Assembly: GCA_009379825.1 (NCBI GenBank)
Contig: WHTA01000029.1
Coordinates: forward strand, 1 to 61,517
DNA length: 61,517 bases
Source: Streptosporangiales bacterium
Lineage (GTDB): Bacteria > Actinomycetota > Actinomycetes > Streptosporangiales > WHST01
Reading direction: 5' to 3'
Positions 12,473-47,611 of this stretch are shown piece by piece. Position 1 is the first letter of the stretch. Each line of letters begins with the position of its first letter. A model generated the notes under the pieces. That model was not told the origin of the DNA. It worked only from the letters and a program-made list of their open reading frames with translations, and made no database searches. A program made the position numbers and the translations under genes.

Positions 12473-13222
12473 TCACCGGGCCGTCCAGCCGCCGTCGACG
12501 TAGAGCGTGGTGCCCGTGACGTACCGCGACGCGTCGCTCGCGAGGAACACCACGGCACCGTCGAGGTCGCTGCCTTCGCCGATCCTGCCCTGCGGAATCG
12601 CGCCGACGATGGTGTCGCGCCACCTGCTGGCCATCAGCCCGGCGGAGAGATCGGTGGCGAAGTAGCCGGGGGCGAGTGCGTTCACCCGCACCCCGCGGTC
12701 CGCCCACTCCACCGCGAGCACCCTGGTCAGCGCCTCCACCCCGCCCTTGCTTGCCGCGTACGCAGCGATCCGCTCGAAGCCGCTGACGCCGTGCACCGAG
12801 CTGACGTTGACGATGCTCCCGCCGCCCTGGGCGAGCAGCTGGTTGCCTACGGCACGGCAGCAGTAGAACGCACCGTCCAGGTTGACCCGCAGCACGTCGG
12901 CCCACTCCTCGTCGGTGACGCGCTCGCTGCGCTTGAAGAGCGGGCTGATCCCGGCGCAGTTGACCAACACGTCCAGCCGCCCGTACGCGTCGACGATCCG
13001 TTCCACGCAGCCGTCGACGACCTGCGGGTCCGCCACCGAGCCAGGCAGCACGAGCGCCCGCGGCCCGATCTCGCCGGCCAGCGACTCGAGGTCGGCGGCG
13101 GTACGCGACGTCACCGTGACGGTGGCGCCGGCACGGGCCAGCGCGAGCGACATCGCCCGGCCGAGCCCCTTGCCAGCGCCGGTCACCCAGGCGACCCTTC
13201 CGCTGAGGTCGAACTCGCTCAT
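12473..13222 (-). CDS. SDR family oxidoreductase (last gene of the catabolic operon)
   Basis: This 249-residue classical short-chain dehydrogenase/reductase has the cofactor motif VTGAGKGLGRA near the N-terminus, the NAG-type motif LVNCAGIS, catalytic Ser in NVSSVHG and the YAASK pair. The C-terminus VTGTTLYVDGGW is typical. It oxidises or reduces an alcohol/ketone with NAD(P). Its ATG overlaps the stop of the upstream acyl-CoA ligase by four bases (ATGA), so translation is coupled. As one of three SDRs in the operon, it probably handles a hydroxyacyl or carbinol intermediate. Sequence does not reveal the substrate. Confidence 0.9.
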   Translation of the reverse strand: MSEFDLSGRVAWVTGAGKGLGRAMSLALARAGATVTVTSRTAADLESLAGEIGPRALVLPGSVADPQVVDGCVERIVDAYGRLDVLVNCAGISPLFKRSERVTDEEWADVLRVNLDGAFYCCRAVGNQLLAQGGGSIVNVSSVHGVSGFERIAAYAASKGGVEALTRVLAVEWADRGVRVNALAPGYFATDLSAGLMASRWRDTIVGAIPQGRIGEGSDLDGAVVFLASDASRYVTGTTLYVDGGWTAR

Positions 13223-14757
13223 GAGGCCGTGGTCTCCGGCACTGCGGCGCGCAGGTCGCGCTTGAGCACCTTCCCGCTCGGCGTCCGCGGCAGGGCGGCC
13301 ACGAACTCGAACTCGGCGGGCACCTTGAACTTCGCCAGCCGCGCCAGGCAGAACTCCCGCAGGGCCGCGGAGTCCACCGCGGCGTCCGCGCGCAGCACGA
13401 CGTACGCCTTCGGCACCTCACCCCACCGCGGGTGCGGCATGCCGACGACCGCCGCCTCCACGACACCGTCGTGTTCGTAGAGCACCCGTTCCACCTCCGG
13501 TGTCGCGATGTTCTCTCCGCCGGAGACGATCATGTCCTTCTTCCTGTCCTCGACGTAGAGGTAGCCGTCCTCGTCCAGCCGCCCCACGTCGCCGGTGTGG
13601 AACCAGCCGTCGCGGAACGCGGCCGCCGTCGCGGCCTCGTCGCGCCAGTAGCCGGGGCTGACCTTCGGGCCGCGCAGAGCGATCTCGCCGAGCTGGCCCT
13701 GCGGCACCGGTGCGCCGGTCTCGTCGACGATGCGGACCTCCAGGTGGATCACCGGGCGCCCGACAGAGCCGACCTTGGCGAGCACGTGCTCGGTGTCGTT
13801 GAAGGTGTCCCCTGACACCGTCTCGGTGAGTCCGTACGCGTCGGAGAACCAGGCGTTCGGGAACGCGCGCAGGATCTTCTCCACCAACGGTTCCGGCATC
13901 TTCTCGCCGCCACCGATGATGAACCGCAGCGACGAGGTGTCGCGTTCGAGGATATCTGGCAGCTGTAGGACGGCGTTCATCATGGCGGGGGCGAGCCAGA
14001 CGTTCGTCGGCCGTTCCTGCTCGACGAGTTGCACGGCCGCTGCCGCCTCGAACCTCTCCATCACCACCAGACTGCCGCCGACGTGCAGCGTGCCGAGGCC
14101 CGGCAGGTCGAGCCCGCCCACGTGGTACAGCGGGCCGCACACCAAGGTGACGTCGGCGGCGGTGATACCGAACTCGGCGATGTGCCCGAGCTGCTTCCAC
14201 ACCACGTTGCCGTGCGTGATGCAGACGCCCTTCGGCCTGGACGTGGTACCCGACGTGTACATCAGCCGTTGCAGGTCGTGCTCCCCGACGTCCGCCACCG
14301 GGACGTCGGCGTCCTGGTGGTCGGCCACCAGCTGTTCGTACCCCAGCCAGGGCGCACGGTCGGGGCGGCCGAGCAGGATCTGGTGGCGCAGGCCAGGCAG
14401 GTCGGCCGCGATCGCCTCGATGTCGTCGGCGAACTGCTCCTCGGTGACGATCGCGGCGGCCCGTGCGTGCCCGAGGATGTACTGCCACTCCGCCGGCGCG
14501 AGGCGGTAGTTCAACGGCAGGAACGCCGCACCGAGCCGGTTGACGGCGAAGACCACCTCGAGGAACTCGGTGTGGTTGTACATCAGCAGTGCCACCACGT
14601 CGCCGCGGCCGACGCCGCGGTCACGTAGTCCGGCGGCGAACGCACGGACCCGCGCGTGCAGCTCGCGGTTCGTGATCGACCGGTCGCCTTGCTTGATCAC
14701 GACCTTGTCCGGGTAGCGCGCCAGGTTGTGGTCGAGCACCGATGCGAAGTTGTACAC
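13219..14757 (-). CDS. acyl-CoA ligase (AMP-binding, FadD-like)
   Basis: This 512-residue ANL-family ligase has MYTSGTTSRPKGVCITHGN for ATP binding, YGLTETVSGD, WFHTGDVGRLDEDGYLYVEDRKKDMI and the C-terminal catalytic lysine in PRTPSGKVLKRDLR. Its size and motifs fit medium/long-chain or aromatic acyl-CoA synthetases. It lies 9 bp downstream of an SDR and is translationally coupled to the following SDR. In the operon it would activate the acid released by the carboxylase/oxidation steps so that the enoyl-CoA hydratase and acyl-CoA dehydrogenase of the same regulon can act. The chain specificity is unknown. Confidence 0.88.
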   Translation of the reverse strand: MYNFASVLDHNLARYPDKVVIKQGDRSITNRELHARVRAFAAGLRDRGVGRGDVVALLMYNHTEFLEVVFAVNRLGAAFLPLNYRLAPAEWQYILGHARAAAIVTEEQFADDIEAIAADLPGLRHQILLGRPDRAPWLGYEQLVADHQDADVPVADVGEHDLQRLMYTSGTTSRPKGVCITHGNVVWKQLGHIAEFGITAADVTLVCGPLYHVGGLDLPGLGTLHVGGSLVVMERFEAAAAVQLVEQERPTNVWLAPAMMNAVLQLPDILERDTSSLRFIIGGGEKMPEPLVEKILRAFPNAWFSDAYGLTETVSGDTFNDTEHVLAKVGSVGRPVIHLEVRIVDETGAPVPQGQLGEIALRGPKVSPGYWRDEAATAAAFRDGWFHTGDVGRLDEDGYLYVEDRKKDMIVSGGENIATPEVERVLYEHDGVVEAAVVGMPHPRWGEVPKAYVVLRADAAVDSAALREFCLARLAKFKVPAEFEFVAALPRTPSGKVLKRDLRAAVPETTAS

Positions 14758-14766
14758 GAGGTTCCC

Positions 14767-15609
14767 CTACTGTCGCTCCGTCGCGGGATCGGCGTGGAAG
14801 CTGTGCAGCTCGTCACCGCCCTTGCCGAAGTGGATGGCACTGGTCATGCCGCCGTCCACGATGAGGTCGGTGCCGGTCACGTAGTCGGCCTGCGGGCTGG
14901 ACAGGTAGAGCACGGCGGCAGCGATGTCGTCTGGCTCACCGATCCGTCCCCACGGCGTCGCCGACTCGGTCGCCGACCGGATCGCGGACGTGGCAAGTGT
15001 GTCCCTGTTCAGTCCCGTATGCACTACCCCGGGGCTCACCGAGTTGATCCTGATCCGGCTCTGCGCCAGCTCGGCCGCGAGTTGCTTCGTCATCGCGAGC
15101 ACACCGCCCTTCGCGGCCGTGTACGAAGGGAAGCCGTAGCCGATGTGGCCGGCGATGGACGCGATCTGCACGATCGAACCGCCACCGGCTTCGGCCATCC
15201 TCGGCACCACCTGCTGCAGCATGACGAAGTAGCCGGTGACGTTCACGTCGAGCACTCGCCGCCACTCCTCCACCGAGGTCTCGAGCAGCTGCTTCCTGAC
15301 CACGATGCCGGCGGCGTTGACGAGGATGCGCGGCGGGCCCAGCCGGTCGCTCGCGGTGGCCAGCGCGGCGGCGACCGCGGACTCGTCGGTGACGTCGACC
15401 TCGACGTCGACGGTCTCGGCGCCGGCCGTGCCGAGATCCTTCCCCGTACTGGCCGCGGCGGCACCGTCGCGGTCGAGCAGCGCGACACTCGCCCCGGCGG
15501 CGGCGAGCTGCTGTGCGCAGGCCTTCCCGATACCGGACCCGGCACCGGTGACGACCGCCGCTCGCCCGCGGAGATCCACGGGCGGGCCAACATGTTGAGG
15601 TGAGGGCAT
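14767..15609 (-). CDS. SDR family oxidoreductase
   Basis: This 280-residue classical SDR has VVTGAGSGIGKACAQ (NAD(P) binding), LVNAAGIV, IVQIASIAG (catalytic Ser), SYTAAKGG (Tyr and Lys) and YVTGTDLIVDGG. It carries a short C-terminal extension beyond the usual end (HFGKGGDELHSFHADPATE). It is the sixth gene of the leftward catabolic operon, 27 bp after the preceding SDR gene and 9 bp before the ligase. The role is likely oxidation of a secondary alcohol or beta-hydroxy intermediate; the substrate is not determinable from sequence. Confidence 0.9.
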   Translation of the reverse strand: MPSPQHVGPPVDLRGRAAVVTGAGSGIGKACAQQLAAAGASVALLDRDGAAAASTGKDLGTAGAETVDVEVDVTDESAVAAALATASDRLGPPRILVNAAGIVVRKQLLETSVEEWRRVLDVNVTGYFVMLQQVVPRMAEAGGGSIVQIASIAGHIGYGFPSYTAAKGGVLAMTKQLAAELAQSRIRINSVSPGVVHTGLNRDTLATSAIRSATESATPWGRIGEPDDIAAAVLYLSSPQADYVTGTDLIVDGGMTSAIHFGKGGDELHSFHADPATERQ

Positions 15610-15636: not shown

Positions 15637-16413
15637 TCAACCCATCCGGTAGCCACCGTTGACGTCGACCACGGTGCCCGTCATGTAGCTCGCCGCCGGC
15701 GACGCAAGGAACACCGCGACCCTGGCGATCTCCTCCGGCTGGGCGAACCTGCCGAGCGGACAGTAGTCGGGCCGGTAACCGCGGCCGACCACCATGTCGG
15801 TGTCGACCACCCCTGGAGCCACCGCATTGGCCGCGATGCCGCGCGCCGCCTCGGTCTTCGCCAACCACGCGACGAGCGCGTGCACACCGCCCTTGCTCGC
15901 GACGTAGTGCGGTCCGGCCAGCACGCCGCCCACCTGGCCGGCCACCGACCCGATGCAGACGACCCGCGCGCGGTCGGCGGCCCGCAGGTACTGCAGTGCC
16001 GCCTGCACGCACCAGAGCGTGCCGACGACGTTGACCGAAAGCACCTTGTCGACCTCCGCCTGCTCGAGGTCGTCGATCGCCATCGTGTCGCCGTAGATGC
16101 CGGCAGCGGTGACCAGTACGTCGAGCTTGCCTTCTGTGCCGGCAGCGGCGCGCATCGCGTCGACGACCGCCACCTTGTCGGTGACGTCCACGTGTGCCGC
16201 TCGTGCGGCGCCCGCCTCCGCCTGGATCCGGTCGACGGTCTCCGCCGGGTCGAGCACGTCGAACGCCGTGACCGCAGCACCGGCCCTGGCCAGCTCGACG
16301 GCCACCTGCTGGCCGATGCCGCGTGCCGCACCCGTCACGACCGCACGCGCACCGCGCAGCGACCCAGGTCCTTCGGGGTGGAGCACGCCTGGCACCGGTG
16401 CAACAGGGCTCAT
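15637..16413 (-). CDS. SDR family oxidoreductase
   Basis: This 258-residue classical SDR has VVTGAARGIGQQVA, LVTAAGIYG, CIGSVAGQVG and the HYVASK active-site pair, ending MTGTVVDVNGG. The start is ATG 16413, whose first base is the last base of the upstream CMD stop (TGATG), so the pair is coupled. The longer in-frame ORF upstream is an artefact reading across the CMD gene. It is the fifth gene of the operon. Having three distinct SDRs together argues for a multi-step route with several alcohol/ketone interconversions. Confidence 0.9.
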   Translation of the reverse strand: MSPVAPVPGVLHPEGPGSLRGARAVVTGAARGIGQQVAVELARAGAAVTAFDVLDPAETVDRIQAEAGAARAAHVDVTDKVAVVDAMRAAAGTEGKLDVLVTAAGIYGDTMAIDDLEQAEVDKVLSVNVVGTLWCVQAALQYLRAADRARVVCIGSVAGQVGGVLAGPHYVASKGGVHALVAWLAKTEAARGIAANAVAPGVVDTDMVVGRGYRPDYCPLGRFAQPEEIARVAVFLASPAASYMTGTVVDVNGGYRMG

Positions 16414-16814
16414 CACGACGTCCCGTCGTCCTTCTTTTCGGCGGCCTCGAGCTCCTCCATGAGCACTGGCACCCCCAGGGTGCAGGTGTGGATGCCGAGC
16501 ACGCTCGTCAGCTCGAACACCTCCATGATCTCTTCCTTCGTAGCGCCGTACTTCAACGCATTGCGGATATGCACCCGCAGACCCGGCTCGTAGAGGTGCG
16601 TCGTGGACGCGTCGATCGCGGTGTAGATCAGCTCGCGCACCTTCGGTTCGAGCACACCCTTGCGCCACGGCACCGAAGAGAACTCGACGTACGCCTCGAA
16701 GAAGTCGGGGTCGAGCTGCAGCAGCCCGTCCCAGATCGGGCTCCAGTAGCCACGTTCCTCGATGAACTGGTCTCGCAGCTGGCGCTGCTTGTCGCTGAGT
16801 TCTGTCTCTGGCAC
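16413..16814 (-). CDS. carboxymuconolactone decarboxylase (CMD) family protein
   Basis: This 133-residue helical protein belongs to the CMD/AhpD-like superfamily: RELIYTAIDASTTHLYEPGLRVHI and ALKYGATKEEIMEVFELTSVLG carry the signature VH..NAL..GAT.EEI. The AhpD CxxC pair is absent, so peroxidase-type activity is unlikely and a lactone-decarboxylase-like or other binding role is more plausible. I chose GTG 16814 because GAGGAG is spaced eight bases upstream; the longer ORF lacks a ribosome site. It sits between HyuB (19 bp upstream) and an overlapping SDR. Its precise reaction in this operon is unknown. Confidence 0.83.
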   Translation of the reverse strand: MPETELSDKQRQLRDQFIEERGYWSPIWDGLLQLDPDFFEAYVEFSSVPWRKGVLEPKVRELIYTAIDASTTHLYEPGLRVHIRNALKYGATKEEIMEVFELTSVLGIHTCTLGVPVLMEELEAAEKKDDGTS

Positions 16815-16833: not shown

Positions 16834-18792
16834 TCAACCTTGCGCAGTGCTCGCCGCAAGCTCGGCCCTGCGCCTGCTGGTGGCCTCGTGGTCGATGACG
16901 AGACCTTCCGGGTCGGTCACCGGGTCACCGGTGATGACGACGCCGTAGTCGCGGTACGCGCCCTCGATGCTCACGTACTCGTCCCTCACGTCGTTCTTAA
17001 CGCGCTCCGGGTCGCGCTCCAGCGGGCTGCCCCAACCGCCACCGCCGTTGGTGAGGTAGCGGAACACCGCACCCCGCTTGGTCTGCCACACCGGTGACGA
17101 CGCGAAGTAGAAGTACTCACCGTTCTCCAGGTCGACGTGCTTGGTCTCGGGGTCGAGCACACCCGAGATCGGCACGGCATCCGCGTACACTTCACGCTCG
17201 AGACCGATGATGTCCTTCTTCGCCGCCACGTCGAACGACTCAGGCTCGAAGAACCAGACGGCTCCGGTGCCGCCGTCCTTGCCGCCGTGCACGCCGACCC
17301 CACTCGTGCGTTTGGTGTGCATGGGGCTCGACCAGTGTTCGGCCTCGCGCAGCCACATGGTGTCCTTGAAGACCGCGGCACCGCCGCGGTTGGTCCCAGG
17401 GCCACCGCTGTCGATCGCGTACTCCTTCCTGAGCACGACACCGGGCACATCGGACTCGATCGCCTCGGTCGCGGGGTCCAGGTTGTTGGCGAGTGAGATC
17501 GCCTCGTAGCTGTCGCCGTCGGCGTACTTCGTGGCACCCCACGGCCCGTGCTCGCCGCCGCACTGCGCGGTGGTCACCCACGGCGTGCCGTCGTCCAGCA
17601 CACCGTGCGCGTTGTGGATGCTCAGCGAGCCGTAGTCGCCACCCACGGCGTTCTCCCCCAGCGCCTGCTCCAAGGCCCGGTAGATCGCCAGCAACACGGG
17701 CATTGCGGTCTCCCAGTACAGGAAGATCGCCCCGTCGGGCGGTGTCGCGCTCACGAAGGTGCCTGGCGGGATGACCACGTCGATGTTGCGGTACGACCCG
17801 GACGTGAACCTGGTCCTCGGGTCGATCAGCGACTTCAGCGCGACCCCGACTGCCGTCTTCGTGTCGAGGGTGCCGCTGTTGATGCTCGTCCTCGCCTGCG
17901 GCGAAGTACCACTGAGGTCGACCTCGATGTTCTCGCCGGCCTTGCGCAGTTCCAGCTTCAACCGGTACTCGACGGTGTCGTCGATGCCGTCGCAGTCGAT
18001 CCCTTCCTCCGCGTGGTACACGCCGTCCGGGATCTGTGTGATCGCCTCGCGCATCGACTCCGCCGAGACGTCACAGCTGTACCTGATCGCACCCAGGTAC
18101 GCGTCGATGCCGTACTTCTCGATGCTCTCCTTGACCAGCCGCTCCCCGAGCAACAGGTTCTGGTAGATGGTCTTGATGTCGGGCAGCAGCAGGGCCGCCA
18201 TCCGCGCGTTGTCGAAGATCAGGTTGAACGACGACTGGATCGGCTTGTCGTCGCGGTACAACAGCGACGGCGAGATCACCAGACCGTTCTCGTAGACATT
18301 GCGCTTGGTGGCGCTGAAGCCCGCAGGCACGATGCCACCCATGTCCAGCTGGTGCGCGCGCAAAGTGATGTAGGTGACCACCTTGCCGTCGTGGAACACC
18401 GGCCGGATGAAGCAGATGTCGTTGACGTGGTTGCCGGTGCGGTACGGGTCGTTGGCGATGATCACGTCGCCTTCGCGGACCTCTGCCGGCCCGTACTCCT
18501 CGATCGTGTTACGTACGGCCTCGGCCATCGTGCCGAGGAACAGCACCAGGCTGTTGCTCACCGCGCCCATCGGGTAGTTCTGCTCGCGTGGCCCTGAGAT
18601 GGTCGCAGCGAAGTCGTACCAGTCACGCAGGATCATCGAGAACGCGTTGTTCAACAGGTCGGAGCACATGTGCTGCACGATGTAGCGCATCCGGCTCGAC
18701 AACACGGATGCGGTGAACCTGTCGGCTCCGTACTCGGCGAGGAACTGCGCCTCGTCCACATCTTTCAGGGACACGTGCGGATTGCTCGTCAT
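16834..18792 (-). CDS. hydantoinase B/oxoprolinase family subunit (HyuB, ketone-carboxylase-like)
   Basis: This 652-residue protein is the HyuB-type subunit. It shows DRFTASVLSSRMRYIVQHMC at the start, the family motif IIANDPYRTGNHVNDICFIRPVF and SGTSPQARTSINSGTLDTK in the middle, and GGGGWGSPLERDPERV near the C-terminus. Families built on HyuA/HyuB include hydantoinases, 5-oxoprolinases and the ATP-dependent acetone and acetophenone carboxylases. The catabolic neighbours (CoA ligase, SDRs, enoyl-CoA hydratase) fit a ketone or keto-acid carboxylase better than an amidase, but this is inference. ATG 18792 is used; HyuA ends 20 bp upstream. Confidence 0.9.
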   Translation of the reverse strand: MTSNPHVSLKDVDEAQFLAEYGADRFTASVLSSRMRYIVQHMCSDLLNNAFSMILRDWYDFAATISGPREQNYPMGAVSNSLVLFLGTMAEAVRNTIEEYGPAEVREGDVIIANDPYRTGNHVNDICFIRPVFHDGKVVTYITLRAHQLDMGGIVPAGFSATKRNVYENGLVISPSLLYRDDKPIQSSFNLIFDNARMAALLLPDIKTIYQNLLLGERLVKESIEKYGIDAYLGAIRYSCDVSAESMREAITQIPDGVYHAEEGIDCDGIDDTVEYRLKLELRKAGENIEVDLSGTSPQARTSINSGTLDTKTAVGVALKSLIDPRTRFTSGSYRNIDVVIPPGTFVSATPPDGAIFLYWETAMPVLLAIYRALEQALGENAVGGDYGSLSIHNAHGVLDDGTPWVTTAQCGGEHGPWGATKYADGDSYEAISLANNLDPATEAIESDVPGVVLRKEYAIDSGGPGTNRGGAAVFKDTMWLREAEHWSSPMHTKRTSGVGVHGGKDGGTGAVWFFEPESFDVAAKKDIIGLEREVYADAVPISGVLDPETKHVDLENGEYFYFASSPVWQTKRGAVFRYLTNGGGGWGSPLERDPERVKNDVRDEYVSIEGAYRDYGVVITGDPVTDPEGLVIDHEATSRRRAELAASTAQG

Positions 18793-18812
18793 CGTCGTCG
18801 ACGCTCCTTCGC

Positions 18813-20831
18813 TCAGGCTCGGGTGATCCGCAGCTCGCCGTACGTTCCGACCGTGGCGACCTGGCCGGCGACGAGGAAGGTGGTGGACAGGGGCTCGCGA
18901 ATCACCGCAGGACCAGCGACCTGGTCGCCACGGCACAGCTCGGCTCGCTGGTACTCGGAGGCGCCGACGACGTCGTCGCCGAGGTGACGGAGCTCGATCT
19001 GGCGCGTCGGCTCGGGTGCGCCTCCGTTGCGCTCAGGCGCCGCCGGGTACTCGACCTTGTCGGCCGCGACGATCGCGTCCACCCGGTACGTGACGCCCTG
19101 CACGGGCAGCGCCTCGAACTTGTTGCCCGACCGCTGCTCGTAGCGTTCGTGGAAGTTGGCGATCATGGTCTCCACCGCGGCACCGTCGATCTCGCCGTCG
19201 GGCACGCCCACGAACGGCGTCTCCCAGGTCTGCCCGGCGAGCCGGCCGTCGAAGCTGCGGACGAACCGCACGTCCATGTCGCCGAGCCGCTTGCTCAGCT
19301 GCTCCTCCATCTGCGCGTACACCTTGTCGATCGAAGCCGCGGCCTCAGGCGTGAGCATGGTGTACGCACTGCGGCTGTCGGCGTAGACCAGGTCGGAGCT
19401 GAGCAGACCGAGCGCGGAGAACAGACCGGGGTGCGGCGGCACCACGACCTCGCGGGCGTGCACCAGGTCGAGGGTGGCGGGCAGCAGCATCGGCCCCGCC
19501 GCGCCGTACGCCACGAGGCTGTAGTCGCGCGGGTCGACACCGTGCTTGATCGCGATGTTGACGACGCCTTCCGCGATGTTGTTCAGCCCGATGTTGAACG
19601 CGTAGCTGACCCGCTGCTCGTAGTCGAGTGGGCTGTCCAGCCCCTCGAACGCGTCCCTGGCGAGGTCGGGACGCAGGTGCATCTGGCCGCCGGCGAAGGC
19701 GTCGGCGTCGATGATGCCCATCAGCAGGCAGGCGTCGGTGAGCGTCGGCTCAGTGCCACCGGCGCCGTAACAGGCCGGCCCTGGATCTGCGCCCGCGCTG
19801 CCCGGCCCCACCTGCAGCTCGCCGGTCGCGGTGCTGGTGACGAGGCTGCCACCGCCGGCACCGATGCTGTCGACCTCGTTCGAGAGCGCATTCACCACGA
19901 GGTCGTGCTCGAGCTCGAACGTGGTGTTCACGAACGGCTCGCCCTCGGTCACCATGCTGATGTCGCACGACGTGCCGCCGACGTCCGCACAGAGCAGGTT
20001 GCCGACACCGAGCAGGCTGCCCAGGTGTGCGCTCGCCACGGTGCCCGCCGCGGGACCGGCGAACACCACCTTGAACGGGTGCTCCATCGCGACGTCCGAA
20101 CGCACCAGGTGCGCGGCGCAGTCGGCGAAGTTCAGGTCACCTTCGAAGCCGAGGTCACGCAGGCCACCGTCTAGCCGCTTGGTGTAGTCGTCGTAGATCA
20201 GCTTCATGAACACGTCGATTACGGTGGTCGACGCGCGGGCGAACTCCTTCGCCAGCGGCGACACCTCGCTCGAGATCGAGACCGGTACGTCGCCGAGCTC
20301 TTCGAGCACCAGCTGACGGAGTAGTTCCTCGTGGTACCGGTTCAGGTATGCGTTGATCAGACAGATCGCGACGCCCTGCACGCCGCAACGGCGCAACACC
20401 GCGAGCTCTTGGCGGGCCTGGTCCTCGTCGAGCTGGATCAGCACGCCGCCGTCGGCGGTCAGCCGCTCACGCACACCGCGACGCAGGTAGCGAGGCACCA
20501 GCGGCCGGGCCGCGTCGCCGAACGGACGGCGCCAGTTGGGGTCGGTGAGCCCCTCGACCGGCCGCCAGTTACGTCCGATGTCGAGGATGTCGCGGTGCCC
20601 CAGCGTGGTCAGGAACGCGATCTTCGGGAGCCTGCGGGTGATGATCGCGTTGAGTCCGTGCGTGCTGGCGTGGTTGAAGACCGTGGAGTCACCGACGCCG
20701 ATCTCTTGCGCACCACGCAGTACGCCGCGCTCGGTCTGCTGGACATCGGTCGCGACCTTGACGGTATCGATCTTCCCGTTGGTGATCGCTACGACGTCGG
20801 TGAAGGTGCCGCCTACGTCTACTCCGATCAT
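18813..20831 (-). CDS. hydantoinase A/oxoprolinase family subunit (HyuA, ATP-binding)
   Basis: This 672-residue protein is the ATP-using HyuA subunit of the ASKHA fold. MIGVDVGGTFTDVV gives the phosphate-binding loop. NHASTHGLNAIITRR, FAGPAAGTVASAHLG, LCADVGGTSCDISMV, EVDSIGAGGGSLV and GPGSAGADPGPACYG are successive family blocks. In the DVGGTS motif a Cys replaces the more common Thr/Phe after the Ser, which could affect substrate choice. It pairs with HyuB downstream and follows a small 88-residue gene. The ATP-dependent role, phosphorylating substrate or bicarbonate, is known for the family; the substrate here is unknown. Confidence 0.92.
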   Translation of the reverse strand: MIGVDVGGTFTDVVAITNGKIDTVKVATDVQQTERGVLRGAQEIGVGDSTVFNHASTHGLNAIITRRLPKIAFLTTLGHRDILDIGRNWRPVEGLTDPNWRRPFGDAARPLVPRYLRRGVRERLTADGGVLIQLDEDQARQELAVLRRCGVQGVAICLINAYLNRYHEELLRQLVLEELGDVPVSISSEVSPLAKEFARASTTVIDVFMKLIYDDYTKRLDGGLRDLGFEGDLNFADCAAHLVRSDVAMEHPFKVVFAGPAAGTVASAHLGSLLGVGNLLCADVGGTSCDISMVTEGEPFVNTTFELEHDLVVNALSNEVDSIGAGGGSLVTSTATGELQVGPGSAGADPGPACYGAGGTEPTLTDACLLMGIIDADAFAGGQMHLRPDLARDAFEGLDSPLDYEQRVSYAFNIGLNNIAEGVVNIAIKHGVDPRDYSLVAYGAAGPMLLPATLDLVHAREVVVPPHPGLFSALGLLSSDLVYADSRSAYTMLTPEAAASIDKVYAQMEEQLSKRLGDMDVRFVRSFDGRLAGQTWETPFVGVPDGEIDGAAVETMIANFHERYEQRSGNKFEALPVQGVTYRVDAIVAADKVEYPAAPERNGGAPEPTRQIELRHLGDDVVGASEYQRAELCRGDQVAGPAVIREPLSTTFLVAGQVATVGTYGELRITRA

Positions 20832-20861
20832 GGGCTCTACTTCCCTTCAGAAGACGCTAAT

Positions 20862-21128
20862 TCAGTCGACAGCGAGACCGGCCGAGACGAGGGTGATCGG
20901 GCCGAACAGGTGCCACGGCTCGCGGCTGACGGACTGGAGGGTCGGTTGGTGCTTGACGACCATGAACCAGCCGCCTTCGGAGAGCACCGGGTAGCGGCGG
21001 AAGTCCGCCACCGTCGAACCGGGAAAGTCGCGCTGTAGGTCCACCCCCAGCGCGCGAAGCTCGTTTTCGGTCACTTCCTCCCTCGGGACGGAAGGACCCT
21101 CGGGCACGGTCACCTGTGCTTCGCCCAT
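20862..21128 (-). CDS. small hypothetical protein, first gene of the HyuAB operon
   Basis: The 88-residue product (MGEAQVTVPEGPSVPREEVT, then LRALGVDLQRDFPGSTVADF) matches no family I can name. It has no Cys, no membrane segment and no signal peptide. The strong ribosome site GGGGAG six bases before ATG 21128 decides the start; a longer in-frame reading to 21227 would run across the operator. Being first in the operon, 30 bp before hyuA, it may be a small accessory subunit comparable in position to the third subunit of ketone carboxylases, though it is shorter than acetone carboxylase gamma and lacks zinc-binding cysteines. Confidence 0.72.
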   Translation of the reverse strand: MGEAQVTVPEGPSVPREEVTENELRALGVDLQRDFPGSTVADFRRYPVLSEGGWFMVVKHQPTLQSVSREPWHLFGPITLVSAGLAVD

Positions 21129-21186: not shown

Positions 21187-21243
21187 ATAAACTCGATGGC
21201 AGCACTGTAGGACTCTCGAACCGGCATGACAAGGGGAAGATCG

Positions 21244-22032
21244 ATGGAAACCGGCCCGAGAACCAGAGTTCAACTCGAAGCGCGCGGGTCGGTCAGGACC
21301 GTCCGGCTGCACCATCCGCCGCTGAACGCGTTCGACAGCGCGATGCGCAGCGAACTCGCCGAAGTCGCGCGTGACCTCACCGACGCCAGCGACGTCGGCG
21401 CGGTGGTGCTCTACGGCGGCGAGCGCGCGTTCGCCGCCGGCGCCGACATCCACGAACTCGCCGACATGGGGTACGAGCAGATCCACCACTGGAACCGGGC
21501 CATGCAGCGCACCCTCGACCAGTTCGCGCGGTTGCCGATGCCCGTCGTCGCCGCGATTTCCGGCAACGCGCTCGGCGGCGGCCTCGAGCTCGCGCTGGCC
21601 GCCGACTACCGGGTGGCCGACCCGGGAGCACAGCTCGGCCTCCCCGAGGTGCTGCTCGGCATCATGCCGGGCTCGGGCGGCACCCAGCGGTTGAGCCGGC
21701 TGGTCGGACCGGCGAAGGCGAAGGCGATCATGATGACCGGCCGCCGGCTCGACGCCGCCGAGGCACACGCCATCGGCCTCGTCGACCAGCTCTCCGCAGA
21801 CGGCCAGGTGTACGAAGCGGCGCTCGACTACGCCACCCGGCTCGCGGCCGGTCCCAGGTACGCGATCCAGGCGATCAAGCAGGCCGTCGACCACGGTACG
21901 GACGCGTCCATGGCCGCCGGGCTCGCCCTGGAGCACGCGGCGATCTCCGGGCTGTTCGCGACGGCCGACAAGGACACGGGGATGCAATCGTTCCTCGCCG
22001 ACGGTCCGGGACATGCGCGTTTCGGGGACTGA
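21244..22032 (+). CDS. enoyl-CoA hydratase/isomerase (crotonase family)
   Basis: This 262-residue crotonase has the oxyanion-hole segments AFAAGADIHEL and SGNALGGGLELALAADYR, and both catalytic glutamates are in place (GGLELA and LPEVLLGIMPG). GSGGTQRLSRLVG follows as expected. It would hydrate a 2-enoyl-CoA to the 3-hydroxyacyl-CoA. ATG 21244 is preceded by AGGGGAAG; the alternative ATG at 21226 lacks a ribosome site. It is the first gene of a two-gene rightward operon with the TetR regulator 67 bp downstream, and its promoter region contains operator site 1. Confidence 0.9.
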   Translation: METGPRTRVQLEARGSVRTVRLHHPPLNAFDSAMRSELAEVARDLTDASDVGAVVLYGGERAFAAGADIHELADMGYEQIHHWNRAMQRTLDQFARLPMPVVAAISGNALGGGLELALAADYRVADPGAQLGLPEVLLGIMPGSGGTQRLSRLVGPAKAKAIMMTGRRLDAAEAHAIGLVDQLSADGQVYEAALDYATRLAAGPRYAIQAIKQAVDHGTDASMAAGLALEHAAISGLFATADKDTGMQSFLADGPGHARFGD

Positions 22033-22768: not shown

Positions 22769-24742
22769 TCACGCTGCTGCCGCCGTACGCAATGCGGCGG
22801 TGATCTTCTCCCTGTCGGGCAGCCAGGCGCGTTCGAGCGTCGGCGCGTACGGCGCGGGCGTGGCCTCGGCACCCACCCGCAACACCGGGGCATCGAGCGT
22901 CCAGAAGCCTTCGTGTGCCGCGAGCGCGGCCAGCTCGGCACCCACCCCGAACTCGGCGACCGCCTCGTGCGCGATCACCAGCCTGTTGGTCTTCGCCAGC
23001 GACGCGAGCACCGTCGGCTTGTCCAGCGGCGCGACCGTCCGCAGGTCGATGACCTCGACGCTGACACCTTCCGCCGCGAGCTGCTCGGCGCTGGCGAGGC
23101 ACTCGTGCAGCATCCGTGAGTACGAGACCAGCGTGACGTCGGTGCCGCTCCTGCACACCCGCGCCTTGCCGAGCGGCACCAGGTGGCCGTCAGGCGGTGC
23201 GGGGCCGACGCTGCCGTAGAGCAACCGGTTCTCGACGAAGACGACGGGGTTCGGGTCGCGGATCGCCGCGCGCAGCAAGCCGTACGTGTCGGCGGGCGTC
23301 GCCGGCATCACGACGGTGAGACCCGGTATGTGCGCGAGCAGTGCCTCCAGGCTCTGCGAGTGTTGACTGCCGGAGGAACGACCGGCGCCGAACTGCGTCC
23401 GCACGACGAGCGGCAGGCTGGCGCCGCCGCCGGTCATGTAGCGCAGCTTGGCCGCCTGGTTGAGTAGCTGGTCGAAGCACACACCCAGGAAGTCGAAGTA
23501 CATCAGCTCGACCACCGGTCGCATCCCGGCGAGCGCCGCGCCCACTGCCGTGCCGACGATCGCGGTCTCGGAGATCGGGGTGTCGCGCACCCGCCCGGGG
23601 AACGTGTCGGCCAGCTCCCTGGTCAGCCCGAAGACGTTGCCGCCGGCGCCCACGTCGATACCGGCGAGGAAGACCGAGTCGTCGTGCTCCAGCTCGTACG
23701 TCAGGGCCGCCCTGACCGCCCTGCCGACCTTCGTGGTCTCACCGGCGGGCTCCACCGGCTCAGGCGCCGGCTCCCTGGGCGTGATCACGTAGTGGTGCAG
23801 GGTCTCCGCGGCGGGCTCCCGGCCGGCGTGCGCCGCCGCGACACCGTCGTCGATCAGCTGCTCGACCTCCGCGTCACACGCGGCCAGATCCGCGCTGTCC
23901 ACCCCCAGCTCGGCGAGCCGGTTGGCCGCCACCAGCAACGGGTCGCGCTCTCGCCAGTGCTCGAGCTCGTCGGCATCACGGTAGCGTTCCGGGTCGCCCT
24001 CGTAGTGACCGCGCCAGCGGTAGGTGTCCGCCTCGACCATGATCGGGCCGGCACCGGAGCGCAGCCGTTCCACCAGGCCGGCGGTGAGCTGCGCGACCTC
24101 GACCACGTCGTTCCCGTCCACCCGGTGGAACTCGACGCCGTACCCCTGGGCACGGTCGGTGAGCGTCACCGGGTGCTGGGCCGCTGCGGCGGAGAACTCC
24201 GCGTACTTGTTGTTCTCGCAGCAGAAGAGCACCGGCAGCTGCCAGACCGCGGCCAGGTTGACCGCCTCGTGGAACATGCCCTGGGCCACCGCGCCGTCGC
24301 CGAAGAACGCGACCACCACGGCGCCCTCGTCGCGCAGTTGCGCAGCGGTTCCCGCACCGACGGCGATCGGCAGGCCGGCGGCGACGATGCCGTTCGCGCC
24401 GAAGATGCCAAGGCGCGGATCGGCGATGTGCATCGAGCCGCCGCGGCCGCCGCAGACGCCCTCGCTCTTGCCCATCAGCTCCGCGAGCATCGCCTTCGGG
24501 TCCAGCCCCTTGGCGATGCAGTGTCCGTGCCCGCGATGGGTGGAGGTGACCACGTCGCGTTCCTCCAGCGGCCAGCAAGTGCCTACGGCCGATCCCTCCT
24601 GCCCGACGGAGAGGTGCAGGAAACCCGGCACGTCCCCGTCCCGGTAGAGCGTGGCAGCACGTTCCTCGAAGGCCCTGATCAACCGCATCCTGCGGTACAT
24701 CTCTACGAGTGCCGCGGCGTCGGTGGTCGAGATCTCGTTCAC
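22769..24742 (-). CDS. fused alpha-beta TPP-dependent 2-oxoacid/acetoin dehydrogenase E1
   Basis: This 657-residue protein joins an E1-alpha domain (residues about 1-330) to an E1-beta domain (about 335-657). The alpha part has STHRGHGHCIAKG, GGRGGSMHI and the TPP motif FFGDGAVAQGMFHEAVNLAA ending in NNKYAEFS. The beta part has DTPISETAIVGTAVGAALAG and VRTQFGAG. Such fusions act on branched-chain 2-oxoacids or acetoin, transferring an acyl group to a lipoyl E2. No E2 or E3 gene is in the window. GTG 24742 follows GAGGAG. The promoter faces operator site 2. Confidence 0.88.
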   Translation of the reverse strand: MNEISTTDAAALVEMYRRMRLIRAFEERAATLYRDGDVPGFLHLSVGQEGSAVGTCWPLEERDVVTSTHRGHGHCIAKGLDPKAMLAELMGKSEGVCGGRGGSMHIADPRLGIFGANGIVAAGLPIAVGAGTAAQLRDEGAVVVAFFGDGAVAQGMFHEAVNLAAVWQLPVLFCCENNKYAEFSAAAAQHPVTLTDRAQGYGVEFHRVDGNDVVEVAQLTAGLVERLRSGAGPIMVEADTYRWRGHYEGDPERYRDADELEHWRERDPLLVAANRLAELGVDSADLAACDAEVEQLIDDGVAAAHAGREPAAETLHHYVITPREPAPEPVEPAGETTKVGRAVRAALTYELEHDDSVFLAGIDVGAGGNVFGLTRELADTFPGRVRDTPISETAIVGTAVGAALAGMRPVVELMYFDFLGVCFDQLLNQAAKLRYMTGGGASLPLVVRTQFGAGRSSGSQHSQSLEALLAHIPGLTVVMPATPADTYGLLRAAIRDPNPVVFVENRLLYGSVGPAPPDGHLVPLGKARVCRSGTDVTLVSYSRMLHECLASAEQLAAEGVSVEVIDLRTVAPLDKPTVLASLAKTNRLVIAHEAVAEFGVGAELAALAAHEGFWTLDAPVLRVGAEATPAPYAPTLERAWLPDREKITAALRTAAAA

Positions 24743-24804: not shown

Positions 24805-24848
24805 CGAAACAATAGGCTGTGGGACAAGACGTCGGGAGGTGGGTCCGG

Positions 24849-25907
24849 GTGCACGCGCTCCGTTGGTACGGCAAGGGCGATCTGCGGTTGGCAGATGTCC
24901 CAGAGCCCGCTGCCCCGGACGTCGGCCAGGCCGTGATCGAGGTGGCGTTCTGCGGCATATGCGGCACCGACCTGCACGAGTACGCGGACGGCCCGGTGCT
25001 CATCAGGCCGGAAGGTCACCCACTCACCGGATGCAAACCGCCGATGACCATGGGCCACGAGATGAGCGGCACAGTGGTGGCGTTGAACGGCACCGCGCCC
25101 GGCATCGAGGTCGGCACGCGGGTGGCAGTCGATCCTTGCCTGCGCTGCGACCAGTGCTACTGGTGTCTGCGTGGCGACTACCACATCTGCGCGAAGGGCG
25201 GCTCCGTCGGCCTGGCCGCGCCTGGTGGCTTCGCCGAGCTGGTCACCGTGCCCGTGTATTGCCTGGTGCCGGTACCCGACAGGGTACCCGACGAACACGC
25301 CGCCGTGGCCGAGCCGCTGGCCGTCGGCCTGCACGCAGTACGCCGCGCGGGCGTGCAACCCGGCGACAACGTCCTGGTGATTGGCGCGGGCCCGATCGGT
25401 GTGGCCGCGATTCTCGCCGCACGGCTCGCCGGCGCGGCCGGGCTCTACGTCAGCGAACCGATGGCGGCACGCGCCCGGCACGCCGCCACCCTCGGCGTGA
25501 CTGAGGTCTTCGACCCCACGGCCGTCGACGTCCGCAGGGAAGTGTTCAGGCGTACGTCCAGGGTCGGCCCCGACGTCGTGGTGGAGGCGACAGGCAAGGC
25601 TGCCGCCGCGGAGCTGGCGATCAACACCGTCCGCCGCGGCGGCACGGCAACGCTGGCCGGCGTATCGGGCGAACGGCTCGACCTGCCGCTCGGCTCGGTC
25701 GTGCTGTACGAACGCACGGTGGTCGGCTCGCTCGGCTACAACTACGACATCCAGCGGGTGCTCGGGTTACTGGCCACCGGCCGGCTCGACGCGACCGCCA
25801 TGACGACCGACATCAGGCCGCTGACCGCGGGGCCAGATGTGTTCGACGCGCTGCTCGGCAACAGCGGTGAGCAGCTCAAGATGCTGTTGACCCCGAAAGG
25901 TCCGTGA
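24849..25907 (+). CDS. zinc-dependent alcohol dehydrogenase (2,3-butanediol/sorbitol dehydrogenase-like MDR)
   Basis: This 352-residue medium-chain dehydrogenase has the catalytic-zinc ligands in FCGICGTDLHEY and GHEMSG and the structural-zinc Cys4 lobe DPCLRCDQCYWCLRGDYHIC. A Rossmann motif follows (VIGAGPIGVAAILAARLAG). The N-terminus HALRWYGKGDLRLADVPEP and the HPLTG insertion resemble 2,3-butanediol dehydrogenases, suggesting a vicinal diol or acetoin-type substrate, which would match the adjacent E1. GTG 24849 is preceded by GGGAGGTGGG. It is followed after one base by the acyl-CoA dehydrogenase gene. Confidence 0.9.
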   Translation: MHALRWYGKGDLRLADVPEPAAPDVGQAVIEVAFCGICGTDLHEYADGPVLIRPEGHPLTGCKPPMTMGHEMSGTVVALNGTAPGIEVGTRVAVDPCLRCDQCYWCLRGDYHICAKGGSVGLAAPGGFAELVTVPVYCLVPVPDRVPDEHAAVAEPLAVGLHAVRRAGVQPGDNVLVIGAGPIGVAAILAARLAGAAGLYVSEPMAARARHAATLGVTEVFDPTAVDVRREVFRRTSRVGPDVVVEATGKAAAAELAINTVRRGGTATLAGVSGERLDLPLGSVVLYERTVVGSLGYNYDIQRVLGLLATGRLDATAMTTDIRPLTAGPDVFDALLGNSGEQLKMLLTPKGP

Positions 25908-25908
25908 C

Positions 25909-27057
25909 ATGGACTTCGACCTGCCGGAAGAGACCGTTGCCCTGCAACGGATGTGCCGCGAGTTCGCGGACAAGGAGGTCGCGCCGTACGCAGCCGAGTG
26001 GTCGGAGCGTTCGTACTTCCCCACCGAGGTGTTCCGCAAGATGGGCGACCTCGGTCTGATGGGCATGCTCGTCGACGAGGAGTACGGCGGCAGCGCCGCG
26101 GGCTACCTCGCGTACGTGACCGCCATGGAGGAGCTCGGCACGGCCGACCAGTCCGTGGCGTCCGCCTGGAACGCGCACTCCACCATCGCCACGCTGCCGC
26201 TCGCGACGTTCGGCACGCCGACCCAGAAACGCGACTGGCTGGTGCCGCTCGCGGAGGGCAGGAACATCGGCGCGTTCGGCCTCACCGAGCCGACGGCGGG
26301 CTCGGACGCCGCGGGCATCCAGATGCGCGCACGCCGCGCCGACGGTGGCTGGCTGCTCGACGGGACGAAGATGTTCATCAGCAACGCCGGCACCGAGATG
26401 AGCCTCGGCGTCACGGTGCTCGCCGTCACCGGCACGACCGACGAAGGGACGAAACGGTTCGGTACGTTCTTCGTCCCCGACGACCACCCCGGCTACACGA
26501 AGGGCCAGCCGCTGCAGAAGATCGGTTGGCACATGCTCGACACGAGGGAGCTCGTCTTCCGCGAGTGCTGGGTGCCCGACACGCACCTGATCGGCGACGA
26601 GGGCAACGGCCTGCGGCAGTTCCTGCAGGTGCTCGACCCGGGCCGGATCAGCGTGGCGGCACTGTCGCTGTCGCTGGCCAGGGCCGCGCTCGAACTTGCC
26701 ACCACCCACGCGAAGGAACGCGAGCAGTTCGGCAAGCCGCTGCACAGCTTCCAGGCGGTGGCACACAAGCTCGCGGACATGGCGACGGAGGTGGAGGCGG
26801 CACGCGGCCTCGTCCGACGAGCGGCATGGCTCGCGGACGAGGGCAGGCCGTTCACCAAGGAGGCCGCGATGGCGAAGCTCTACGCCTCGGAGCTGGCCAA
26901 CCGCGCGGCGAGCGCCAGCGTGCAGATCCACGGCGGTTACGGTTACGTCAGGGAGTCGGCCATCTCCCGGTTCTACACGGACGCGAAGATCCTGGAGATC
27001 GGCGAGGGCACCAACGAGGTCCAGCGCAACGTCATCGCCCGCCTGCTCACCAGCTGA
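25909..27057 (+). CDS. acyl-CoA dehydrogenase
   Basis: This 382-residue flavoprotein is of normal acyl-CoA dehydrogenase length. FGLTEPTAGSDAAGI and FISNAGTEM mark the FAD/substrate region, and RISVAALSLSLARAALELA, REQFGKPLHSFQAV and IHGGYGYVRE complete the family blocks. The catalytic base corresponds to the Glu in EIGEGTNEVQRNVIARLL. It oxidises an acyl-CoA to the 2-enoyl-CoA, feeding the enoyl-CoA hydratase of the same putative regulon. The ATG lies one base after the dehydrogenase stop, a tight two-gene operon. It converges on the MMPL gene, 4 bp away. Confidence 0.92.
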   Translation: MDFDLPEETVALQRMCREFADKEVAPYAAEWSERSYFPTEVFRKMGDLGLMGMLVDEEYGGSAAGYLAYVTAMEELGTADQSVASAWNAHSTIATLPLATFGTPTQKRDWLVPLAEGRNIGAFGLTEPTAGSDAAGIQMRARRADGGWLLDGTKMFISNAGTEMSLGVTVLAVTGTTDEGTKRFGTFFVPDDHPGYTKGQPLQKIGWHMLDTRELVFRECWVPDTHLIGDEGNGLRQFLQVLDPGRISVAALSLSLARAALELATTHAKEREQFGKPLHSFQAVAHKLADMATEVEAARGLVRRAAWLADEGRPFTKEAAMAKLYASELANRAASASVQIHGGYGYVRESAISRFYTDAKILEIGEGTNEVQRNVIARLLTS

Positions 27058-30117: not shown

Positions 30118-30239
30118 CGCGCGATCGCGCAGCGTGGCCGGCCACCCGCGGCGGTCCGCGACTCACAGGCGCGGCCGAGGTGTCATGGGTAGTCTGCCGG
30201 AGGGCCACTTACCGACACGAGCCACCACGAGGAGTCTCG

Positions 30240-31571
30240 TTGACTGAGCCAGCACTCACAGCCTCCGACCTGGAGCTGTTCGACAAGAGCTTCGCCGCCA
30301 ACCCGACGCACCGGGCGATGCAGAACGCCGTCACGTCCACGTCGATCGACAACGTCGCGTTGGACCGGGAGATCGTCGCGTCGACCGACACTACCGTGTC
30401 GAACCTGCTCGACGACTGGAAGACCACGAACCAGAAGAACAGCGGCCGCTGCTGGATGTTCGCGGGCCTGAACCTGCTCCGTGCCGGCACGGCCAAGAAG
30501 CTGAACGTCACCGACTTCGAGTTCTCGCAGAGCTACGTGCAGTTCTGGGACAAGTTGGAGCGCGCCAACTACTTCCTCGAAGCCGTCATCGACACCAGCG
30601 ACCGCCCGGTCGACGACCGCACCGTCGGCTTCCTCCTCAGCGAGGTGCTCAGCGACGGCGGGCAGTGGAACATGTTCGCGGCACTGGTGAAGAAGCACGG
30701 CCTGGTCCCCAAGCAGGCGATGCCGGAGACCGACAGCTCGTCCGCCACCAGCAGGATGAACAACAACCTGTGCGCGATCCTGCGCGAGGGCGCCAGGGAC
30801 GTGCGTGCCCTGCGCGCGTCCGGCGTCGAGGCGCAGCGGGAACGCAAGCGGGAACTGCTCGAGGTCGTACACCGGGTGCTGCGCATCCACATCGGCACGC
30901 CACCCACGAAGTTCCTGTGGCAATGGCAGGACAAGGACCGCAACTTCCACCGGCACGGGTGGACGACCCCGACGGAGTTCGCCGCCGAGTACGTCACCGT
31001 CCCGATCGACGAGTACGTCTGCCTGGTGAACGACCCGCGCGAGACCAGCCCGTACGGCCGCACCTTCACCGTGGACTACCTCGGGGCCGTCGTGGGTGGC
31101 GACCGGGTCACGTACCTCAACGTGGAGATCGACGTGCTGAAGCAGATCGCCGCGGACACCGTGGCCGGCGGCGAGCCTGTCTGGTTCGGCTGTGACGTGG
31201 ACCCGATGATGAGCCGCGAGATCGGCATCTGGGACGCCAAGCTCTACGACTACGGGAGCGTCTACGACGCCGAGGTGACGCTGAGCAAGGCCGACCGGCT
31301 CGTCTACCACCACTCGGCCATGACGCACGCCATGCTGTTCACCGGCGTCGACATCGTCGACGGCACGCCGCGCAAGTGGCGGGTGGAGAACAGCTGGGGC
31401 GACGACAAGGCGGACAAGGGCTTCTACACGATGAACGACTCGTGGTTCGACGAGTACGTCTTCGAGATCGCCGCCCGCAGGTCGGCGCTGCCGAAGCACC
31501 TGCAGGACGCGCTCGATACCGAGCCGCTTGTGCTGCCGGCGTGGGACCCGATGGGCTCGCTCGCCCGCTGA
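30240..31571 (+). CDS. pepC: aminopeptidase C (bleomycin-hydrolase-type C1 cysteine peptidase)
   Basis: This 443-residue papain-family peptidase has the catalytic Cys in QKNSGRCWMFAGLN, His in AMTHAMLFTGVD and Asn in WRVENSWGDD, the order and spacing of PepC/bleomycin hydrolase. Such enzymes form cytoplasmic hexamers, trim peptides from the N-terminus and can inactivate bleomycin-type compounds. I chose TTG 30240 because GAGGAG lies five to ten bases upstream and the next residues (LTEPALTASDLELFDKSF) resemble the family start; the ORF extends further upstream without a ribosome site. A strong terminator follows directly. Confidence 0.92.
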   Translation: MTEPALTASDLELFDKSFAANPTHRAMQNAVTSTSIDNVALDREIVASTDTTVSNLLDDWKTTNQKNSGRCWMFAGLNLLRAGTAKKLNVTDFEFSQSYVQFWDKLERANYFLEAVIDTSDRPVDDRTVGFLLSEVLSDGGQWNMFAALVKKHGLVPKQAMPETDSSSATSRMNNNLCAILREGARDVRALRASGVEAQRERKRELLEVVHRVLRIHIGTPPTKFLWQWQDKDRNFHRHGWTTPTEFAAEYVTVPIDEYVCLVNDPRETSPYGRTFTVDYLGAVVGGDRVTYLNVEIDVLKQIAADTVAGGEPVWFGCDVDPMMSREIGIWDAKLYDYGSVYDAEVTLSKADRLVYHHSAMTHAMLFTGVDIVDGTPRKWRVENSWGDDKADKGFYTMNDSWFDEYVFEIAARRSALPKHLQDALDTEPLVLPAWDPMGSLAR

Positions 31572-45920: not shown

Positions 45921-45935
45921 CGCCCGATACCCCCG

Positions 45936-47432: not shown

Positions 47433-47611
47433 GGCCGCTCACCACCGCTCGCGCCGCCGTCGTCGCCCCGGTCACGCCAGGTCCACTGCACCTGGCCACG
47501 CGCCACCGTGTCGTGGTGGTGGCGGATGTACCGGCAGCACCGGCTGTGCACGGCGACGACAGGCACGCCGCGTCTGCGGTCACCGGCCCGGCGCGTCCAG
47601 GCACAGTTCAT
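47429..47611 (-). CDS. 60-codon ORF coupled between nuoL and nuoM
   Basis: ATG 47611 overlaps the nuoL stop (ATGA) and the TGA at 47429 overlaps the nuoM start (ATGA), so ribosomes can pass from nuoL to nuoM without a gap. The predicted peptide is Arg/His/Cys-rich ([19 protein letters not shown], then HSRCCRYIRHHHDTV), with three Cys and five His. I know no such subunit in complex I. It may be a real small metal-binding protein or only a coupling device; there is no separate ribosome site. Confidence 0.45.
   Translation of the reverse strand: MNCAWTRRAGDRRRGVPVVAVHSRCCRYIRHHHDTVARGQVQWTWRDRGDDGGASGGERP

Follow-up and report, generated by a model that had tools for sequence, protein, structure and literature searches.

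The window (the whole 61,517-nucleotide stretch of DNA, from a soil bacterium of the Streptosporangiales, that was analysed) carries adjacent genes for HyuA, the ATP-binding (ASKHA) subunit, and HyuB, the metal-site subunit, of a HyuAB-type enzyme. Pfam matches and the surrounding CoA-type cluster confirm an earlier note on this DNA, which had described a HyuAB pair in a catabolic setting, and every neighbour it had named (a CoA ligase, three SDRs, an enoyl-CoA hydratase and an acyl-CoA dehydrogenase) is found at the locus. The interval it gave, 16834-21128, encloses both genes and also, at one end, an 88-aa gene that the note had not mentioned; the CMD protein, fused E1, Zn-dependent alcohol dehydrogenase and TetR regulator had likewise gone unnamed. 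The genes are as follows.

12473..13222, minus strand: SDR1, dehydrogenase of the lower module
13219..14757, minus strand: acyl-CoA ligase of the lower module (PF00501/PF13193)
14767..15609, minus strand: SDR2, dehydrogenase, kept in close relatives
15637..16416, minus strand: SDR3, dehydrogenase; a ~51% orthologue adjoins HyuAB in Rhodococcus plasmids
16413..16814, minus strand: CMD/AhpD-family protein (PF02627, 1e-13), present in 8/8 close relatives
16834..18792, minus strand: HyuB, metal-site subunit, 652 aa (PF02538, E 5e-119, a value taken from the longer open reading frame 16834-18936)
18813..20831, minus strand: HyuA, ATP-binding (ASKHA) subunit, 672 aa (PF05378, E 7e-35; PF01968, E 4e-63)
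20862..21128, minus strand: putative gamma-like third subunit, small (88 aa) and without the zinc-ribbon cysteines, whose gene opens the HyuAB operon (upstream orthologue in 17/17 clade members)
21226..22032, plus strand: enoyl-CoA hydratase (ECH); adjacent orthologue only in L009, L014, L021 and L071
22100..22768, plus strand: TetR-family regulator, presumably of this cluster (75-80% identity in 8/8 close relatives)
22769..24700, minus strand: TPP-dependent E1, fused alpha/beta, lower module (73-80% in 8/8 close relatives)
24819..25907, plus strand: Zn-dependent alcohol dehydrogenase (ADH), lower module
25909..27057, plus strand: acyl-CoA dehydrogenase family enzyme (ACAD), lower module

Spacing from the small gene to the CMD gene is operon-like, with gaps of 30 bp (small gene to HyuA), 20 bp (HyuA to HyuB) and 19 bp (HyuB to the CMD gene), and SDR3, SDR2, the CoA ligase and SDR1 follow in that order on the same strand. 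The nearest solved structure to the CoA ligase is feruloyl-CoA synthetase 8wev. The typed genes of the cluster include none for amino-acid or hydantoin metabolism, as the earlier note had stated, and no transaminase, amidase, amine-handling gene or thiolase was identified among them. A peptidase of aminopeptidase-C type (30180-31571) lies outside the cluster, as does a P450 homologue (32372-33499; 36% to a Streptomyces plasmid P450). The strongest AT skew among the 3-kb steps of the window, 0.31, falls at 45001-48000.

Conservation of the cluster and its small third gene

A species-genome collection covering 84,980 species by its own description yielded seven further loci, all from Amycolatopsis or Prauserella, with HyuA at 79-80% identity. 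The cluster is kept whole in these seven (L009-L015) and in L021, from a second genome of the window's genus. Its proteins share 63-85% identity in 8/8 close relatives, which indicates that the gene set is not a chance association. The small gene, HyuA, HyuB, CMD, SDR1-3, ligase, E1, ADH, ACAD and TetR are present in 9/9 loci, window included; the exception is the ECH, whose orthologue (at least 60%) occurs in 3/8 close relatives, or 4/9 counting the window. At a threshold of E ≤1e-120, HyuA orthologues are rare, being found in 3/394 genomes of the class, 3/345 of the order and 2/296 of the phylum (each count including the window's own genome), and in 2/35 genomes of the family of G172. More distant members of the clade (56-65%) are L018, L019, L024, L025 and four plasmids, from Rhodococcus rhodochrous GD02, R. 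opacus DSM 44186, R. opacus G13 and Burkholderia arboris. Our literature searches found no work on this clade, although one may exist that they did not reach.

Several irregular copies were also seen. HyuB of L018 (9438-11985, G172) is broken into two reading frames, as a pseudogene or through an assembly error, and the R. opacus DSM 44186 plasmid bears a second, truncated HyuA beside an IS1182 element (L030:11367-11831). The window's own genome (G000, 6.15 Mb) holds 26 HyuA-type matches, some of them HyuA-HyuB open frames of ~1200 aa, a large number beside the few HyuAB enzymes that have been characterised.

The small gene lies directly upstream of HyuA in all 17 clade members. Its product is a CPxC-x20-CxxC zinc-ribbon in five of them (L018, L019, L024, L025 and L031), while the remaining 12 (the window, L021, seven Pseudonocardiaceae and three Rhodococcus plasmids) have lost the four cysteines and are still recognisable as orthologues of the zinc-ribbon form. 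Because one branch has lost its zinc ligands, the clade provides a natural experiment on gamma-subunit function. Both sister-clade loci examined (L069 and L070) carry a related Zn-ribbon gene, but after HyuB; in L069 (8059-13673) the operon HyuA-HyuB-Zn-ribbon has an aldehyde dehydrogenase homologue before it and an alcohol-dehydrogenase homologue after it. No HyuA locus outside the clade and its sister scored with an HMM of the small protein; many of the loci searched end before or soon after HyuB, and the 16 paralogue loci of the window's own genome (L053-L068) are the better control for absence of the gene.

The window's small protein has no PF08882 match and no Pfam or NCBIfam placement, profile searches against the PDB returned nothing meaningful, and its predicted structure (mean pLDDT 64) has no Foldseek match at E ≤0.001. 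Comparison with AcxC of the own-genome acetone carboxylase detected no homology (hhalign probability 2.8%). According to Weidenweber 2017 (PMC5214803), hydantoinase clusters have two genes only, and acetone and acetophenone carboxylases possess a gamma subunit in which four cysteines are conserved. A third gene in 17/17 clade members departs from the two-gene arrangement of HydAB hydantoinases and oxoprolinases and, by these published criteria, argues for the carboxylase branch.

Active-site motifs and phylogenetic position

HyuA contains DVGGTFTD at residue 5, RERLTADG at 121, DVGGTSCD at 283 and GADPGP at 347. The PHOSPHATE 1, PHOSPHATE 2 and GxxPGP ATP motifs that, with a HyuB domain, mark the HyuAB superfamily are thus present, and the ATP motifs are intact in 17/17 clade members. 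The HyuB metal tetrad D60-H122-D125-H147, with D60 assigned through alignment to 7hk5, is invariant in all 17 orthologues; residue roles follow PMC8453981. The predicted structure of HyuB (mean pLDDT 37) is not usable. The cysteine in DVGGTSCD had been singled out earlier as unusual in the ATP-site motif. The motif is indeed present, but the residue is a variable position typical of the clade: cysteine occurs in 14/17 orthologues, the other three having T, V or L, and in 0/33 of the remaining HyuA rows whose motif could be read. We rejected it as a functional signature or catalytic novelty.

In the HyuA tree (55 rows) the 17 orthologues form one clade (support 100/100) whose sister is L033/L034 (100/98). 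Acx+Apc (100/99), the N-methylhydantoinase pair and caprolactamase all branch apart from this clade. The HyuB tree (52 rows), a quick tree with PDB rows trimmed to their aligned stretches, gives the same picture, with the clade outside Acx/Apc. Clear membership of a hydantoinase or oxoprolinase clade, which the earlier note had named as refuting its proposal, is not seen, and the pair does not group with characterised acetone or acetophenone carboxylases either. AU tests on the HyuA tree, constraining 19 rows, did not reject joining the clade with Acx/Apc (p-AU 0.234), N-methylhydantoinase (0.277) or caprolactamase (0.090), and on these alignments the HyuA tree cannot decide between carboxylase and hydrolase.

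Similarity scores lean towards the hydrolases. Against NCBIfam and PDB entries, HyuA scores 353 bits with caprolactamase and 323 with N-methylhydantoinase, and lower with ApcC (231 and 222 bits) and acetone carboxylase (163 bits); the best matches of HyuB are 6yra_B and 7hk5. We take 6yra to be the P. jessenii caprolactamase (its PDB listing is 5-oxoprolinase/hydantoinase). The separate clade, the AU tests and these scores point to a distinct lineage whose deeper kinship these data do not settle. The clade is a real, conserved and hitherto uncharacterised HyuAB lineage, predicted to be ATP-dependent and equipped with a third subunit of its own; in the window it sits in a ketone/CoA catabolic cluster.

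The scores and the unrejected joinings with N-methylhydantoinase and caprolactamase would fit an ATP-dependent lactamase, hydantoinase or amidase, the best-known chemistry of the family. We nevertheless consider this assignment quite improbable, as the scores fall far under the NCBIfam equivalog cut-offs for caprolactamase (353/1000 and 196/1000 bits), the window cluster has no identified gene for handling amines or amides, and the conserved third gene runs contrary to the hydantoinase two-gene rule.

Neighbouring pathways and candidate chemistry

We compared 4-kb flanks of the 17 clade loci with those of the 16 own-genome paralogue loci, several of whose flanks are shorter than 4 kb, leaving below-threshold matches uncounted. 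An AMP-ligase homologue lies within this distance in 12/17 clade loci and 0/16 paralogue loci, and the counts for an SDR homologue are the same (12/17 and 0/16). The counts are 1/17 and 2/16 for CoA-transferase III, and 1/17 and 1/16 for the beta-keto-acid cleavage enzyme BKACE. The one clade locus with BKACE is L019, where the operon order is gamma-HyuA-HyuB-SDR-BKACE and the BKACE exceeds the NCBIfam cut-off for 3,5-dioxohexanoate (491.7 vs 430 bits). The sole paralogue control with BKACE is the own-genome AcxABC operon (contig C47, L065:3496-9274), whose AcxC was identified by PF08882 (145 bits) and which has the BKACE homologue directly downstream. The placement of BKACE after both operons fits a beta-keto-acid product for each. 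BVMO-like flavoenzymes adjoin HyuAB in 3/3 Rhodococcus plasmids, and a luciferase-type monooxygenase with a flavin reductase does so in L024; by family, these flavoenzymes are of ketone-oxidising types. A putative alkyl-phenyl ketone carboxylase, apkABC of strain GD02, is listed by homology to other Aromatoleum proteins. Those Aromatoleum proteins are presumably not HyuAB.

The CoA ligase, SDR1, ECH, ACAD, ADH and E1 constitute a separate lower module that is also found without HyuAB. A Streptomyces plasmid carries E1 (70%), ACAD (72%), SDR1 (67%), CoA ligase (64%), ADH (60%), TetR (63%) and ECH (65%), with no HyuAB in the stretch examined; there the lower module is accompanied by a cyclase-family protein, a BVMO-like flavoenzyme, a P450 system and another CMD. 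E1 alone is common (22/394 genomes of the class and 13/342 of the order, both counts including the window's genome). Among 20 further E1 loci, HyuAB is present in 0/20 and the cyclase, at 68-72%, in 5/20, and within the stretches examined this cyclase occurs in 0/17 loci of the HyuAB clade. In many actinobacteria the fused E1 (window and L113-L132) is accompanied by homologues of the CoA ligase, SDR, ADH or ACAD. No E2 accompanies the fused alpha/beta E1 (22769-24700) in the window cluster; on an Azospirillum plasmid, E1 is split and an E2 is annotated.

This distribution bears on the main rival reading, in which HyuAB-gamma is an ATP-dependent ring-opening C-C hydrolase. HyuA would form the enol phosphate of a cyclic 1,3-diketone, and a water bound to the HyuB metal would cleave the C-C bond by a retro-Claisen reaction to give a keto acid for the CoA ligase, ATP being spent on what cyclase-family hydrolases do without it. 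For a phloroglucinol cluster, PMC10470551 describes retro-Claisen ring cleavage by the cyclase-family DPGC (dihydrophloroglucinol cyclohydrolase) and assigns the TAL of that cluster to the BKACE family. A cyclase beside the same lower module, combined with this chemistry, suggests that HyuAB-gamma might open rings, and L019 places HyuAB-gamma beside an SDR and such a BKACE; the nearest HyuAB relatives by score are also ring-opening hydrolases. Against this, the upper modules differ by several genes together, G324 has both systems, the cyclase with E1 (L116) and HyuAB with BKACE (L019), on separate contigs, and a conserved gamma-like gene would be unexpected in a plain hydrolase. We know of no HyuAB enzyme that cleaves a C-C bond. 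We therefore regard this reading as unlikely but deserving of weight, and hold it there because the exchange with the cyclase is not one for one. Slightly more doubtful again is the fuller claim that gamma-HyuA-HyuB would be the first hydrolase to cleave C-C bonds with ATP, standing in for the ATP-free cyclase-family hydrolase that goes with this lower pathway in Streptomyces and other actinobacteria.

The varied neighbourhoods of L018, L019, L024, L025, L031 and the Rhodococcus plasmids would suit an enzyme, whether carboxylase or hydrolase, that takes a keto acid or a CoA-bound ketone instead of a free ketone, with substrates differing by cluster. We give this reading little credence, given that the window cluster itself is highly constant.

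The window enzyme probably prepares a ketone for breakdown, either by adding CO2 or by opening a ring. Carboxylation is the best-supported chemistry, though it is not established, and whether the gamma-like protein, HyuA and HyuB together form an ATP-dependent ketone carboxylase, representing a third and so far uncharacterised lineage, seems to us close to an even question. The earlier note had proposed a new carboxylase of ketones or keto acids, and the analysis supports this in part. In its favour are the third gene, the acid-activating and ketone-handling neighbours, the BKACE of L019 (as in the own-genome acetone carboxylase operon) and the lack of nitrogen genes in the cluster. Weighing on the other side, both large subunits branch apart from Acx/Apc and score higher with caprolactamase and N-methylhydantoinase; the window's small protein lacks all four cysteines and is not detectably AcxC-like; there is no alpha'; BKACE is present in 1/17 relatives only; and the cyclase found with the same lower pathway elsewhere keeps hydrolytic ring opening in contention. 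The accompanying route from ketone through beta-keto acid to CoA thioester finds its ligase, SDR1, ECH and ACAD at the locus, but these belong to the module that also occurs without HyuAB, and no thiolase was identified among the typed genes.

What the sequences show is the gene anatomy, the conservation and the intact ATP and metal motifs; the chemistry, the substrate and the role of the gamma-like protein are inferred. For a carboxylase, the adjacent SDRs would turn an alcohol into a ketone, and HyuA would use ATP to phosphorylate the enol form of the ketone (and bicarbonate). The activated intermediates would move to the HyuB metal site, where C-C bond formation would give a beta-keto acid, with the gamma-like protein as a structural or regulatory part of the complex. 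The window's CoA ligase could then form the thioester (BKACE would act instead in the L019 relative), to be broken down by ACAD, ECH, ADH, SDR1 and the TPP E1. A carboxylase would be a further biotin-free CO2-fixing ketone carboxylase, and a ring-opening hydrolase would represent a novel way of using ATP in catabolism. The lineage is discrete, has a small subunit of its own and a constant cluster, and includes named relatives in accessible strains, so that it offers a tractable entry to the dark part of the family.

Comparison with characterised systems

AcxABC (5m45/5svb), like the clade of the window, combines HyuA and HyuB with a small, Cys-rich third gene product and has the ATP motifs and H-D-H metal ligands; the own-genome AcxABC further resembles the L019 relative in having BKACE after the operon. 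The two systems differ in that their A and B subunits fall in separate clades, the gamma proteins are not detectably homologous and the gamma gene is upstream in the window but downstream in Acx. The first metal ligand is Asp in the window HyuB and Glu89 in acetone carboxylase, and the 5m45 chains exceed the window subunits in length by about 45 and 120 aa.

ApcABCDE (5l9w) shares the gene order gamma-alpha-beta (apcB-C-D), which holds in 17/17 clade members with gamma identity putative, and the window HyuA has the R/KER...G fingerprint that marks the beta-contacting alpha subunit. The window cluster, however, has one HyuA only, with no alpha' (apcA) or epsilon gene identified, and the clade lies outside Apc/Acx, with scores far under the NCBIfam cut-offs.

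CapAB (6yra) and N-methylhydantoinase (7hk5) give the top pairwise scores and have the D-H-D-H tetrad and two large subunits or domains. A third gene is not described for either, both fall in a different clade in the best trees, and no nitrogen metabolism surrounds the window genes. The cyclase hydrolases of DPGC type resemble HyuAB in that comparable clusters combine them with the lower module or with a BKACE and an SDR, but they are unrelated proteins that use no ATP, and the analogy is one of position only.
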